NCBI GenBank assembly: GCA_903825285.1
Contig: CAIJZY010000007.1
Span: 1 to 64,000 of the forward strand
From: an uncultured Opitutia bacterium
GTDB taxonomy: Bacteria; Verrucomicrobiota; Verrucomicrobiia; Opitutales; Opitutaceae
Reading direction: 5' to 3'
DNA: 64,000 bases
In this document: positions 4,760 to 48,455 of the stretch, one piece after another
How the letters are laid out: each line of letters begins with the position of its first letter
How positions within the stretch are numbered: the first letter of the stretch is position 1
Notes under the pieces: model-generated
Database searches by the model: none
What the model saw: only the letters and a program-made list of their open reading frames with translations
What the model was told of the DNA's origin: nothing
Translations under genes and position numbers: made by a program

Positions 4760-6023
4760 CAAGATCGGCGGGGTGCGACGCGGCCCATTCCCAGGCGGGC
4801 AGGCTGACCTGGAAGCAGGCACCGGGTCCGTCGGCCTTGTTCTCTCCGGAGATGCTGCCGTCGTGCGCGGCAACAATGGAGCGGCAGATGCAAAGCCCCA
4901 GCCCGAGTCCACCGGGCTTGGACGTGACAAAAGGGAGGAAGAGCTTCTCGCCAACCTCCCGGGACAGGCCCGGCCCGTTGTCGCTCACCGTCAGCTGGAC
5001 CTCGTCGGGGTCCGCGGCGTGGGTTCGGATGACCAGCCGGCGGTCACGCCGCGGCAGACCGGACATCGCCTCCGCGGCATTCGTGGCGAGATTGGTGAGC
5101 ACCTGCCGCAGCTGCACGGCATCGCCCTGCACGGCGGGCAGTCCTGCGCCCAGCTCGAGCGCGACCTCAGCCCCGCCCAGCGCCGCGCTGGCCTGCAGGT
5201 CGCGCAGTGTTTCGCGAACGATGGCGTTGAGGCAGACCGGCTGGAGCGGTACCCTCTCGCTCCGCGTGCGGGCATGGACGCGATGGATGATCGCCTCGGC
5301 CTGCTCGCACTGGCGGGTGATGTCGGTCACCAGCTCGGCTACCTTTGCCCGCGTGGTGGGCAGCGCGGCCAGGTAGGACTGCGCGGTGCGGGCGCTGTAC
5401 TGGATCGCCATGAGCGGCTGCCGCAGCTCGTGTCCCAGGGCCGCGGCCATCTCCCCCAGGTGGGGCAACTCGCTCATCCGCTCGGGCGGTCTCCGGCGGC
5501 CGCCGCCCTCCCCCGCGAGCTCGCGGCAGATCCCGACCAGCCGGGTCGGCTCGCCGCGCCGGTCAAACTCCAGTTCGGCGCGCACCACGACATGCAGAAT
5601 CCCGCCGTCCCGGCGCACATATCGCACGCGGTGGTCGAGGCGCCCGGTGCGGCGAACCCGGCGCAGGGCGGCGATCCAGGCCCCGCGGTCTTCCCGATGA
5701 ATCCGCCGCACATGAAAACCGGAGCCGCCCAACCGTCCCCAGGCCTCCAGGCCGCCGGCCTCCAGCAGCTGTGGCAGTGTCGGTGGACCCGCAAACTCCC
5801 TCGACCGCGCATCCCAGACGAAGGGCGCCAGCCCGCCGGCCTCGACTGCCTGCTGCAGTTGGCGGCGGCAGCATTTCAACTCATCGGAACCGGGCAGCAT
5901 CCCGTCCAGGAGGTGCCGAACCCGCGCCTGCAGGGTCGCCCCCGCCATGAGCAAGACGCCGGCAAAAACCGTGAGCGCCAGCAGGGGTGGGAGAAGAAAA
6001 TCGGGAAGGGCTTCGAGGTCCAT
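4728..6023 (-). CDS. FixL-like PAS sensor histidine kinase
   Basis: A 431-residue sensor kinase. One hydrophobic segment lies near the N-terminus (about residues 8-28), so it is probably membrane-anchored. A PAS-like domain spans about 50-165 (HREDRGAWIAALRRV, YVRRDGGILHVVVRAELEFD). The H-box is EMAAALGHELRQPLMAIQYS. The ATPase domain shows an N box (QLRQVLTNLATNAAEAM), DNGPGLSREV and GGLGLGLCICRSI. A good ribosome site, GAGGGAG, lies about 5 nt before the ATG. It forms an overlapping pair with the FixJ-like regulator. No heme-ligand His is obvious, so an oxygen-sensing role is not implied. Confidence 0.88.
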   Translation of the reverse strand: MDLEALPDFLLPPLLALTVFAGVLLMAGATLQARVRHLLDGMLPGSDELKCCRRQLQQAVEAGGLAPFVWDARSREFAGPPTLPQLLEAGGLEAWGRLGGSGFHVRRIHREDRGAWIAALRRVRRTGRLDHRVRYVRRDGGILHVVVRAELEFDRRGEPTRLVGICRELAGEGGGRRRPPERMSELPHLGEMAAALGHELRQPLMAIQYSARTAQSYLAALPTTRAKVAELVTDITRQCEQAEAIIHRVHARTRSERVPLQPVCLNAIVRETLRDLQASAALGGAEVALELGAGLPAVQGDAVQLRQVLTNLATNAAEAMSGLPRRDRRLVIRTHAADPDEVQLTVSDNGPGLSREVGEKLFLPFVTSKPGGLGLGLCICRSIVAAHDGSISGENKADGPGACFQVSLPAWEWAASHPADLDEAHAHHLRG

Positions 6024-6222
6024 TCGCTCCCTCTGATGAATGTTCTTCCCCGCTTGTCCATAGCTTCGACTACCGATTTTCCAGTATCGGGAATTGCCGG
6101 TGAATTGCGAATTTCAAGTCGTGTGCGCCCATAATTTTTGGGCGAAGGAGAATGAGCCGCGGGAAAATTCTGGCAGGCCTGGCTCGCAGTGCGAAGTGAG
6201 CGGGCTGGATCCAAAGCGGAAG

Positions 6223-6250
6223 GCCCTCCTTCGCTAAAGCTTCGGAGGGC
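6223..6250 (-). repeat. GAA/GAA hairpin element, copy 1
   Basis: On the minus strand: outer stem GCCCTCC/GGAGGGC, internal loop GAA opposite GAA, short inner stem GCT/AGC. It lies in the 312-bp space between the kinase start and tRNA-Ser, which otherwise shows no gene. It shares its design with copies at 6309-6339, 31100-31124 and 48329-48359, whose stems differ in sequence but keep pairing. Confidence 0.6.
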
Positions 6251-6308
6251 ATCCTTCGCTGCGACGTGGTCACACCCGCTACGTCCCCAGTAGTCAGTGG
6301 ATGGCCGT

Positions 6309-6339
6309 GCCATCCGAAGCTCGCAGAGCGAAGGATGGC
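6309..6339. repeat. GAA/GAA hairpin element, copy 2, abutting tRNA-Ser
   Basis: Plus strand: outer stem GCCATCC/GGATGGC, internal loop GAA/GAA, inner stem GCTC/GAGC, loop GCA. Its right arm overlaps the encoded CCA and discriminator base of tRNA-Ser (6336-6339), so in the tRNA precursor the 3' CCA could be paired into this hairpin. Confidence 0.6.
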
Positions 6340-6423
6340 GGAGAGGGAGGGATTCGAACCCCCGGAGCCTTGCGGCTCAGCGGTTTTCAAGACCGCCGCG
6401 ATAGACCACTCTGCCACCTCTCC
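6336..6423 (-). tRNA. tRNA-Ser (anticodon TGA)
   Basis: Minus strand: acceptor GGAGAGG pairs with CCTCTCC, followed by discriminator G and an encoded CCA. The anticodon loop CTTGAAA gives anticodon TGA, reading UCN serine codons. A long variable arm (GAGCC..GGCTC-like) typical of class II serine tRNAs is present, and the T loop reads GGTTCGAATCC. Total 88 nt including CCA. Confidence 0.95.
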
Positions 6424-6554
6424 GAACCTGACGCCTAAAAAGCAACGGCGGCCCGCAGCCAAAGGCAACGGCCGTTCTTCCGCAGCGGGCAGCCACCCTA
6501 CCCCGTAAAGTCCGGCACCGGCCTTGGCAAGCGGAGGCGAACCCCGCCGCCGCC

Positions 6555-7259
6555 TCAGTCGCGGCGTGAGAGCAGGTAGAGCAGGTTCAGCAGCGCGCTC
6601 ACGAAGGCCGCGACGTAGGTCAGCGCGGCGGCGTTGAGCGTCTCGTTCACGCCAGGCATCTCGTCCTGGTCCAGGATGCCGAGCTCGACGAGCTGCACCT
6701 TGGCGCGACGGCTGGCGTCGAACTCGACGGGGAGCGTGACGAGCTGGAACAGGGAGAGGACCGCGTAGCAGATGATGGCCACATCGAGCACCACGCCGGT
6801 AAGGCCGCGCACGAGGAACCAGCTGGCTAGGATCAGGAACGGCAGGATGCCCGAGACTATCTGCGTGGCGGGAATCAGGAGCATGCGCACGTTGAGCATC
6901 GCGTAGCCCTCCTTGTGCTGGATGGCGTGGCCCGCCTCGTGGGCGGCGACGCCCAGCGCCGCGAGGCTGGTGCCGTGGTAATTCTCCGAGGAGAGCACCA
7001 GGCGCTTGTGCATCGGGTCGTAATGGTCGGTGAGGTGCCCCTCGGTCTCGGTGATCTCCACGTCCGTGATGCCCGCGTGCGCCATGACCGCGGCGGCGGC
7101 CTCGCGGCCGGAGATCTGGCCGCGCGACGGGATCTGGGCGTTCTTGCTGTAGGCGTGGGACACGCGGATCTGCGCGTAAATCGCCAGGATGAAGACCAGC
7201 ACGAACAGCAGCATGAAGGCCCCCGGCGGGAGGAAGACGAAGGCGAGGATGGGTGTCAT
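6555..7259 (-). CDS. YugP-type neutral zinc metallopeptidase
   Basis: A 234-residue membrane protease-like protein of the YugP (zinc-dependent, DUF-derived) family. An N-terminal membrane helix (about residues 8-28) is followed by the family's DHYDPMHKRLVLS stretch and the zinc motif HEAGH beginning at His107 (AAHEAGHAIQH). Two or three further hydrophobic helices follow (LLIPATQIVSGILPFLILAS and later segments). The physiological substrate is unknown; the family is membrane-associated. It is transcribed toward tRNA-Ser and stands alone. Confidence 0.88.
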   Translation of the reverse strand: MTPILAFVFLPPGAFMLLFVLVFILAIYAQIRVSHAYSKNAQIPSRGQISGREAAAAVMAHAGITDVEITETEGHLTDHYDPMHKRLVLSSENYHGTSLAALGVAAHEAGHAIQHKEGYAMLNVRMLLIPATQIVSGILPFLILASWFLVRGLTGVVLDVAIICYAVLSLFQLVTLPVEFDASRRAKVQLVELGILDQDEMPGVNETLNAAALTYVAAFVSALLNLLYLLSRRD

Positions 7260-30478: not shown

Positions 30479-31162
30479 ATGCTCGGCACCGGCTTAATCA
30501 AAGGACTCGCGGTCACCGCGAAGAACCTCGTGGGCAGTTACCACGACCCGGCGCGCTACACCACGGTCGAGTACCCGGAGGTGAAGCCGCCGCTGCCGGA
30601 GGCGTACCGCAATTTCCCTTTCCTGGTCAGCGAGAGCGCGGACGACCCCATGGGCACGCTCCGCTGCGTGGCCTGCCAGATCTGCGAGAAGGAGTGCCCG
30701 CCGCAGTGCATCTACATCGAGAAGAGCAAGGACAAGAAGCCCGACGCCGCGGGCAAGCTGCAGATTTACCCGACCGTCTTCGCCATCGACACCTCGGTGT
30801 GCATGAGCTGCCAGATCTGCGTCGAGGTCTGCCCGTTTGACTCGATCAAGATGGACCAGGTCTACGAGGTCGCCACGCCCGGCCGCTACGGCGACCTGCT
30901 GCTGAACCGTGAGCAGCTGGCCAAGTCCAACGCCTACTACCACCAGATCCGCCCGACCGAGGCCGCCGAGGTGGACGGCCGCCTCGCCGCTGAGCGCAAG
31001 GCCGCCGAGGAAAAGGCCAAGGCCGCCGCCGCCGCGAAGGCCGCGCTGCCGCCCAAGCCGGCTGCACCTTCGCCGGCAGCGAAACTGCCGGACGAATCGC
31101 GCCGAAGCCCACAGGGCGAAGGCGGAGCCGCCAAGCCGCCGGCGGAAGGCGCCCAGCCATGA
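30479..31162 (+). CDS. nuoI: Complex I subunit I (two [4Fe-4S] ferredoxin-like)
   Basis: 227 residues. It binds clusters N6a and N6b via CVACQICEKECP and CMSCQICVEVCP, with the adjacent Pro/Cys pattern intact. It normally relays electrons from NuoG to NuoB; without NuoG it could be the entry point for a soluble donor. The last 60 residues are Ala/Lys/Pro-rich (KAAAAAKAALPPKPAAPSPA) and absent from usual NuoI (~180 residues). This tail contains a hairpin pair (31069-31124). Its stop overlaps nuoH as ATGA. The order I-H is reversed from the common H-I. Confidence 0.94.
   Translation: MLGTGLIKGLAVTAKNLVGSYHDPARYTTVEYPEVKPPLPEAYRNFPFLVSESADDPMGTLRCVACQICEKECPPQCIYIEKSKDKKPDAAGKLQIYPTVFAIDTSVCMSCQICVEVCPFDSIKMDQVYEVATPGRYGDLLLNREQLAKSNAYYHQIRPTEAAEVDGRLAAERKAAEEKAKAAAAAKAALPPKPAAPSPAAKLPDESRRSPQGEGGAAKPPAEGAQP
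31069..31124. repeat. Hairpin pair within the nuoI 3' end, including GAA/GAA copy
   Basis: First hairpin 31069-31096: TTCG-CCGGCAG-CGAAA-CTGCCGG-ACGAA, with a perfect 7-bp core. Second, 31100-31124: outer CGCC/GGCG, internal GAA/GAA, inner GCCC/GGGC, loop ACA, the same design as the copies by the tRNA genes. Both fall inside the low-complexity C-terminal tail of NuoI. Confidence 0.55.
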
Positions 31163-48172: not shown

Positions 48173-48201
48173 TTGACGATGGACCCCCTCCACCCTTTGT
48201 T
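48173..48201 (+). promoter_or_regulatory. Possible promoter of tRNA-Phe
   Basis: TTGACG (48173-48178), a 17-nt spacer and TTTGTT (48196-48201), ending 15 nt before the mature tRNA 5' end. The -35 is good and the -10 is poor. Confidence 0.4.
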
Positions 48202-48216
48202 CGCCCTTCCGCTTGG

Positions 48217-48290
<74 letters not shown>

Positions 48291-48292
<2 letters not shown>

Positions 48293-48325
48293 GTCTTCGC
48301 CGCCGCGAAAGCGGCCAGAAGACTG
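48291..48325 (+). repeat. 3' trailer hairpin of tRNA-Phe
   Basis: Outer 8-bp stem CAGTCTTC/GAAGACTG, inner stem GCCGC/GCGGC capped by a GAAA tetraloop. The outer arm includes the last two bases of the tRNA CCA. No T-run follows, so a simple intrinsic terminator is not obvious. Confidence 0.6.
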
Positions 48326-48328
48326 CCG

Positions 48329-48359
48329 CGTCGAAGCTCGCGTTCAGCGAGCGAAGACG
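48329..48359 (+). repeat. GAA/GAA hairpin element, copy 3
   Basis: Outer CGTC/GACG, internal GAA/GAA, inner GCTCGC/GCGAGC, loop GTTCA. Directly follows the tRNA-Phe trailer hairpin. Confidence 0.6.
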
Positions 48360-48455
48360 GGCCGAGCCCCAGCCAGGCGCTGCAACTCCTCCAGCCAGAC
48401 CCGCTACCCGCCGCTTGCGGCCAAGCGCGGCGCGCCTACAAAGCAAGGTGCCCCT

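Follow-up and report, generated by a model that had tools for sequence, protein, structure and literature searches.

The paired hairpins found in the 64,000-nucleotide stretch of Opitutia DNA analysed here (the window) are not chance sequences but parts of a larger short element located at the 3′ ends of tRNA genes, and this element probably belongs to a mobile, nuclease-linked family that is specific for tRNA 3′ ends. Members of the family share one anatomy, join the tRNA gene at an exact position and in a constant orientation, occur behind many isotypes as well as behind tmRNA, and differ between close relatives. Their stems covary, and the GIY-YIG nuclease encoded next to some of them is under purifying selection and is of a type that matches the hairpin type. 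Read in the direction of the tRNA, a full element consists of the CCA, a proximal hairpin with this CCA in its 5′ arm, a second complement of the arm, a distal hairpin, and the short nuclease gene.

Both tRNA genes of the window carry an element. The tRNA-Ser(TGA) gene (6336-6423, minus strand, ARAGORN and Rfam tRNA), with its encoded CCA at 6338-6336, is the host site of element A, a hairpin-only copy of subfamily A (6223-6335, minus strand) that was delimited from BLAST places in the genome itself and whose first base immediately follows the CCA. The repeat measures 124 nt (6216-6339), as similarity runs on to 6216, and about 15 nt beyond it (to about 6208) look common to two other copies. 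The proximal hairpin (6309-6339, minus strand) has a TTC/TTC loop in the tRNA sense, which is GAA/GAA on the plus strand, and its 5′ arm contains the tRNA discriminator and CCA (GCCA) plus TCC. Arm c (6250-6264, minus strand), recognized in the RNA minimum-energy fold, is a second complement of this 5′ arm, and the distal hairpin (6223-6250, minus strand) reads GCCCTCC-GAA-GCTTTAGC-GAA-GGAGGGC. On the plus strand, the tRNA-Phe(GAA) gene (48217-48292, encoded CCA 48290-48292, ARAGORN and Rfam tRNA) is the host site of element B, a hairpin-only copy of subfamily B (48293-48359, plus strand, from BLAST in the own genome) that again starts immediately after the CCA and whose similarity to two other copies runs on to about 48400. 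Its proximal hairpin (48291-48325, plus strand; CAGTCTTC...GAAGACTG), which takes in the last two CCA bases, is additional to the hairpins listed by an earlier sequence-only reading, and its distal hairpin (48329-48359, plus strand) has the form CGTC-GAA-GCTCGC...GCGAGC-GAA-GACG.

When the 124 nt of element A are folded as RNA, the proximal 5′ arm is predicted to pair with the more distal arm c and not with arm b, so that two alternative structures can be drawn, and folding with DNA parameters gives a different and less certain structure. The RNA fold of element B consists of two separate hairpins. The folding z-scores are -3.2 for element A and -4.9 for element B. At the gathering score, Rfam recognizes nothing in the window beyond the two tRNAs, and it gives no relevant match at 48200-48450. 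The Rfam family sX4 scores weakly, with 29.5 bits against a gathering score of 70, over the tRNA-Ser and the proximal hairpin at 6305-6431 on the minus strand. Intrinsic terminators were considered and rejected: a scan of 6000-6700 detected no T-run site at the hairpins of element A, and none was seen by eye at element B.

The sequence-only reading had proposed that hairpins at 6223-6250, 6309-6339, 31100-31124 and 48329-48359 form one family, in which the stems covary around a fixed GAA/GAA internal loop. All four are found at these places with both stems paired. That reading was to be given up if such hairpins proved no commoner than chance, and the opposite was observed: counting GAA/GAA hairpins on both strands of the window, with an outer stem of at least 4, an inner stem of at least 3 and the GAAs separated by 9 bases or more, gives 3, whereas 100 first-order Markov sequences averaged 0.01 and never had more than 1 (the copy at 6223, with 8 bases between its GAAs, falls outside this count). 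The four copies are, however, not of a single kind, being one proximal hairpin, two distal hairpins of different subfamilies and one solitary hairpin. Nor is the loop fixed. At 6223-6250 the plus strand has TTC opposite TTC and GAA sits on the minus strand, and in the family as a whole GAA/GAA accounts for 5 of the 83 internal-loop hairpins counted among 90 distinct elements.

The distribution of copies within the source genome was determined by reading the 3′ flanks of its 44 tRNA genes, one of which has only 5 nt of flank. As assembled, 13 of the 44 genes have an element directly after the encoded CCA, with constant orientation and junction. BLAST with the 124-nt repeat finds eight places in this genome, all eight at the 3′ ends of seven tRNA genes, with tRNA-Ser-GGA carrying an array of two. 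These subfamily A copies (TCCTTCGC, TCCTTGGC or, once, GCCTTCGC) are hosted by the tRNAs Arg-CCG, Val-CAC, Gly-TCC, Ser-GGA, Ser-GCT (on contig C2), Leu-TAA and Ser-TGA. Subfamily B (GTCTTCGC or GTCTCCGC) occupies six further tRNAs, namely Phe, Met, Ala-CGC, Ser-GCT (on contig C23), Leu-CAA and Leu-GAG. Nine of its ten BLAST places are at these six 3′ ends, four of the nine forming a tandem array at tRNA-Met; the tenth place is weak and has no tRNA within 1.5 kb. Several subfamily B copies run on into a stretch that resembles a tRNA 3′ end (CGACTCGGCAAGCCA), and tRNA-Cys is followed, slightly further downstream, by a lone distal-type hairpin.

One contig end affects these counts. The first 2700 or so positions of C2 (C2:1-2700 = L073), which contain tRNA-Ser(GCT), a subfamily A element and a nuclease gene, are identical to the congener G010 (the same sequence as L092), after which identity is about 90%; this identity extends over 2.5 kb around the element, so the comparison does not reveal the element boundary. 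The same tRNA-Ser(GCT) locus occurs with a subfamily B element at the end of C23 (C23:56675-57502 = L076). Since the C2 start is identical to G010 and its locus is duplicated at the C23 end, it probably either comes from a co-occurring congener, which would make the contig end chimeric, or reflects recent recombination. When the C2 start is set aside, elements follow 12 of 43 tRNAs (six of each subfamily) and one nuclease copy is left, on C14; 12 of 43 is thus the safer count, and only the C14 nuclease copy is secure.

The GIY-YIG genes lie 3′ of the subfamily A copies at tRNA-Ser(GGA) on C14 and tRNA-Ser(GCT) on C2 (the probably foreign one). The two are 65% identical and both pass Pfam PF01541, with 51.3 and 44.6 bits against a cut-off of 22.6. 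The nuclease has about 80 residues and consists of the catalytic domain only, with no additional domain. In an alignment of 28 rows G19, R27, H31 and E63 are invariant and Y5 and Y17 nearly so, these being positions with catalytic roles in GIY-YIG nucleases. An AlphaFold model of the 80-residue protein is confident (pLDDT 95.3). A profile search of solved structures matched UPF0213 (2e-11), Slx1 (3e-6) and, barely, I-TevI (0.63), and the top Foldseek match is also Slx1 (TM 0.71, E 1.5e-3), no match having E <= 0.001. To judge by the titles of the matched structure records the substrate of Slx1 is branched DNA, and for the present nuclease a DNA hairpin or cruciform would therefore be a sensible one. 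As the protein has no extra DNA-binding domain, tRNA genes would be recognized through the hairpins, through the T arm and CCA with their fixed spacing, or through RNA.

The median pN/pS is 0.19 over 74 non-independent nuclease pairs chosen at 70-97% protein identity; differences appear mostly at silent sites, which points to purifying selection. Nucleases that are 95% identical can stand behind different tRNAs (L224 behind Ala, L237 behind Val). A third GIY-YIG gene of the genome (C14:189775) and UvrC (on C41) have no tRNA within 1.5 kb.

Relatives of the nuclease in other genomes show the same association with tRNA genes. A first sample comprised 44 loci of named genomes, found by two peptide patterns taken from the alignment of the two nucleases, and in 27 of them the nuclease gene is preceded, at a distance of 87-272 nt, by the 3′ end of a tRNA or tmRNA gene on the same strand. 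Most of the 27 tRNA-linked spacers show, by eye, the two-hairpin anatomy; three of the 27 (L132-L134) have weakly similar nucleases and lack hairpins. According to record titles the 27 loci come from Opitutaceae, Akkermansia, Lentisphaerae, Limisphaerales and Patescibacteria, and also from Rhizobium, Mesorhizobium, Bradyrhizobium, Dongia, Algimonas and other Alphaproteobacteria, organisms that fall into several phyla.

With a 28-sequence profile, nuclease relatives were detected in 119 of 288 Verrucomicrobiota genomes. From these, 90 loci were taken, 30 of them automatically and 60 roughly by their rank among the matches listed, leaving out several contig-end matches, second matches at one place and lower ranks. 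The 3′ end of a same-strand tRNA or tmRNA gene lies upstream within 450 nt in 66 of the 90, which, the loci being picked by rank, is not an unbiased rate, and within 750 nt in 71. Opposite-strand upstream genes were found at none of the 90 loci and same-strand downstream genes at 3, and the base rate of tRNA adjacency expected from the tRNA density of the own genome is about 0.26%. The 66 tRNA-linked loci span 21 tRNA/tmRNA types, among which Ala (18) and tmRNA (6) are prominent. Low-scoring relatives were at tRNAs in 6 of 20 cases. The two samples overlap: of 31 first-sample loci compared, five share a 120-nt nuclease stretch with the Verrucomicrobiota sample (L092-L185/L186, L115-L182, L116-L190, L119-L183 and L124-L251), L186 being the own C2 nuclease copy and L116 the same gene as L190.

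Of the 24 remaining loci, which have no tRNA in the first 450 nt, five have it farther away, at 460-724 nt, three have less than 150 nt of upstream sequence, and Rfam, run on 16 of the 24, shows cut-off tRNAs at contig ends in two; some are truncated and the rest are unexplained. Two of these loci (L190, L252), along with two of the first sample (L111, L116), follow apparent tRNA 3′ fragments by eye, an arrangement that would fit a later island splitting the tRNA. A tblastn search with one alphaproteobacterial query gave no match in 50,697 phage and 72,556 plasmid records; two viral contigs are among the relatives, and no tRNA was found in the stretches of them that were examined. At L098, L119, L226 and other loci hairpin units are tandemly repeated between the tRNA and the nuclease gene. 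In a Candidatus Peribacteraceae contig (L126, JAQTQU010000010.1) a GIY-YIG gene apparently interrupts the 5′ portion of a 16S rRNA gene, and the sequence on either side reads as 16S.

Comparison of close relatives revealed that the same tRNA gene can be occupied differently. Stretches from 11 congeners were examined, and those of 10 contain the tRNA-Ser(TGA) gene, whose flanks differ among genomes: variant A is present in G002, G004 and G006, B in G007, the distal hairpin only in G011, and neither element in G001. In G003, G005, G009 and G010 (L168, L170, L174, L175) the tRNA is followed by an ORF that looks integrase-like by eye, and by the same inspection islands and hairpin elements use the same tRNA-Ser(TGA) end. 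The orthologous tRNA-Ser(GCT), with the same neighbours, has B and no nuclease on the own C23, and A with a nuclease in G010. Within genus g32, an element with nuclease lies between tRNA-Val(GAC) and a gene reading as recN in G123; G322 has the same gene order and is element-free, G323 has an apparent remnant hairpin at this tRNA, and G319, G320, G302 and G321 have none. A full element, in an example of about 0.4 kb, has the nuclease as its sole visible gene. The congener and g32 comparisons yielded neither an exact 3′ boundary nor a target-site duplication.

The structure of the hairpins was analysed with 95 spacers, of which 90 are distinct. These 90 contain 83 hairpins with a 3x3 internal loop mismatched at both outer positions, against 8.2 in shuffled sequences. 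The loop types include TTC/TAC (13), ATA/GAC (9), AAA/GGC (8), TTC/TTC (7), the already mentioned GAA/GAA, GAA/GTA (4) and GTA/GAA (4). Hairpins of the general forms GNA/GNA and TNC/TNC number 21 and 25, against 0.2 and 0.0 in shuffles; at least one is found with strict Watson-Crick pairing in 36 of the 90 sequences, and any such hairpin in 47. Covariation was tested with 500 permutations on the sequences that fit an anchor (36 of 103 for the proximal hairpin, 33 of 103 for the distal); the proximal anchor fixes one pair on either side of the loop, and the permutation ignores relatedness. In the proximal hairpin the two variable outer positions pair in 100% and 97% of sequences, against 80% and 43% in permutations, and inner positions 2-4 exceed all 500 permutations in proximal and distal hairpins alike. 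Inner position 5 shows no pairing excess over permutations in either hairpin, and the outer stem of the distal hairpin shows none among its 33 sequences. The host CCA bases, from the A outwards, are paired within the proximal stem in 35, 24 and 36 of 36 sequences. The earlier claim of compensatory stem changes, and hence of selection for structure, is borne out at several stem positions, and the copy differences between close relatives support its suggestion of a mobile element.

The tree of the 92 proteins is poorly resolved; it requires 40 changes of isotype, against 62 when shuffled, and 18 of hairpin type, against 36. Of the 92 rows, 60 have H or R at the variable residue of an SG[HR]xF motif in the nuclease together with T or G as first element base, and in 58 of these the two agree, though the independent-pairs test has 2 pairs only (p 0.5). 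Taken together, the tree changes and the H/R agreement suggest that a nuclease tends to stay with its hairpin type as the host tRNA changes.

Hairpins are also encountered away from tRNA genes. In the window a solitary distal-type hairpin (31100-31124, plus strand) lies in the 3′ coding tail of an ORF (30479-31162) read as nuoI. It falls largely within a 24-nt in-frame stretch that is missing in four congeners, a fifth having a larger gap, and the tail is Ala/Pro-rich. As this nuoI-like tail varies in length, a hairpin insertion at 31100-31124 is likely rather than proven. A genome-wide count of the pattern CGAAGC-N3-20-GCGAAGG gave 34 places, and its reversed control gave 11; 10 of the 34 have an outer stem of at least 4 and an inner stem of at least 3, and 7 of these 10 are in tRNA-linked elements. 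The other three are the hairpin at 31100, C14:220070 and C60:65799. The latter two (L014 and L327) are distal-type and solitary and lie between genes.

Such solitary hairpins are REP-like, and to this extent the earlier comparison with REP elements stands. Extended to the whole family, it would mean that REP/REPIN palindromes moved by a Y1 (RAYT) transposase happen to gather at tRNA genes, which we consider unlikely. REP/REPIN sequences of the GTAG and CGTC families are short imperfect palindromes, often in inverted pairs and non-autonomous, and RAYT-linked GTAG repeats are described as abundant, and GTAG REPs as highly enriched, in Opitutus terrae, another member of Verrucomicrobia, in a text that does not mention GIY-YIG (PMC3733652). 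Inverted pairs of imperfect hairpins occur here as well, and three Y1_Tnp matches are present in the genome; these three loci, however, are without a tRNA, and no Y1 match adjoins any copy. GTAG and GAAG are present around the inner stem, but by eye, in part of the elements, they span the loop and inner stem and not the hairpin foot. The repeats found by similarity in the own genome lie, base-exact, at tRNA 3′ ends, and across genomes of several phyla it is a GIY-YIG gene that adjoins the elements. The location at tRNA 3′ ends, the GIY-YIG partner and the host CCA within the stem set the present elements apart from REP/REPIN, and RAYT/REP as the sole explanation was rejected, as the Y1 matches of the own genome are unlinked to the copies.

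A tRNA trailer that benefits the host as a terminator or 3′-processing signal and is spread by gene conversion, with the nuclease as a passenger, would account for the invariable tRNA direction of the element and for the strong folding of both window copies. We regard it as very unlikely, given that a T-run is missing at element A on scanning and at element B by eye, that only 12-13 of 43-44 tRNAs have the element, that the same tRNA lacks it or has the other type in close relatives, and that the nuclease is under selection and agrees with hairpin type. The 3′ ends of tRNA genes are classical integration targets of tyrosine-recombinase islands, but it is most improbable that the elements are remnant attachment sites of such islands, in spite of the island-like ORFs seen by eye after the same tRNA-Ser in four congeners and of the subfamily B copies that continue into CGACTCGGCAAGCCA, given that a single subfamily is found behind many isotypes whose T arms differ, and that the full element of about 0.4 kb has the nuclease as its only visible gene. 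In the short elements neither an integrase nor att repeats are seen.

For the preferred reading of a mobile, nuclease-linked family, phage SegB is the nearest precedent. SegB is a mobile GIY-YIG homing endonuclease whose genes co-localise significantly with those of tRNAs from a wide range of isotypes, and it is implicated in breaks in tRNA-containing sequence (PMC13096335); by this description the likeness consists of a mobile GIY-YIG gene beside tRNAs of many isotypes, so a GIY-YIG nuclease with tRNA neighbours is already a known kind. The novelty lies in the occurrence in bacteria, in a junction exactly at the CCA, in the hairpins at the ends and in the copies that consist of hairpins alone. 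The elements differ from SegB in being chromosomal, in their exact post-CCA, same-strand position, in their tmRNA targets, in a nuclease of 80 aa with no extra domain, and in structured hairpin ends that include the CCA, with hairpin-only copies. The nuclease is nearer to Slx1/UPF0213 than to I-TevI, and homing endonucleases are defined by a single conserved target, whereas 21 tRNA/tmRNA types were found among the 66 loci; relatives that lack the element or are differently occupied do exist. Mitochondrial double-hairpin elements are mobile palindromes, and these, like the mitochondrial GC clusters, resemble the present elements in that some are beside tRNA genes. The GC clusters are likewise mobile palindromes (PMC4478555), for which intron endonucleases have been proposed as helpers, and GC-rich palindromes flank Neurospora mitochondrial tRNA genes (Yin 1981, cited in PMC4478555); they differ in being organellar, and a nuclease gene of their own was not seen in the available part of PMC4478555. 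Tsy transposons carry an accessory GIY-YIG nuclease (PMC10293859). They share this nuclease with the present elements, as integrase islands share the use of tRNA ends, but both need tyrosine recombinases, and none is encoded in the short elements.

The specific mechanism by which such elements would spread is more conjectural, and we hold the following cutting model to be about as likely to be right as wrong. The nuclease, expressed by read-through from the tRNA promoter, would cut the tRNA 3′ end, the hairpins or both, and repair of the break would copy the element in. Hairpin-only copies, including both of those in the window, would be satellites moved in trans by the nuclease. As an element inserted behind the CCA would not disrupt the tRNA, this position may constitute a safe site. 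A nuclease alone, with no recombinase, transposase or reverse transcriptase, does not in itself account for entry into new tRNA loci that share little flanking sequence.

We know of no bacterial element that combines a position at the CCA ends of tRNA and tmRNA genes, across many isotypes, with a single minimal GIY-YIG nuclease and satellites reduced to hairpins; no title on such an element was found among open-licence PMC papers, and a description could exist elsewhere. The elements could accordingly represent a distinct class of mobile element, with an 80-residue Slx1-like nuclease as sole gene, CCA-containing ssDNA or RNA hairpin ends, a target that all tRNAs and tmRNA have in common (T arm, acceptor and CCA) instead of a single sequence, and hairpin-only satellites, although this is a tentative assignment that we would place slightly short of an even proposition. 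If true, a nuclease able to locate tRNA genes of every kind would be a useful tool, and tRNA, hairpin and nuclease offer a compact system in which a structure-specific nuclease, its hairpin and its insertion site may be studied in vitro. The association also suggests a role for a widespread small protein, with relatives in the 119 Verrucomicrobiota genomes noted above, and provides a likely reason for the occurrence of similar hairpins behind tRNAs in several phyla.
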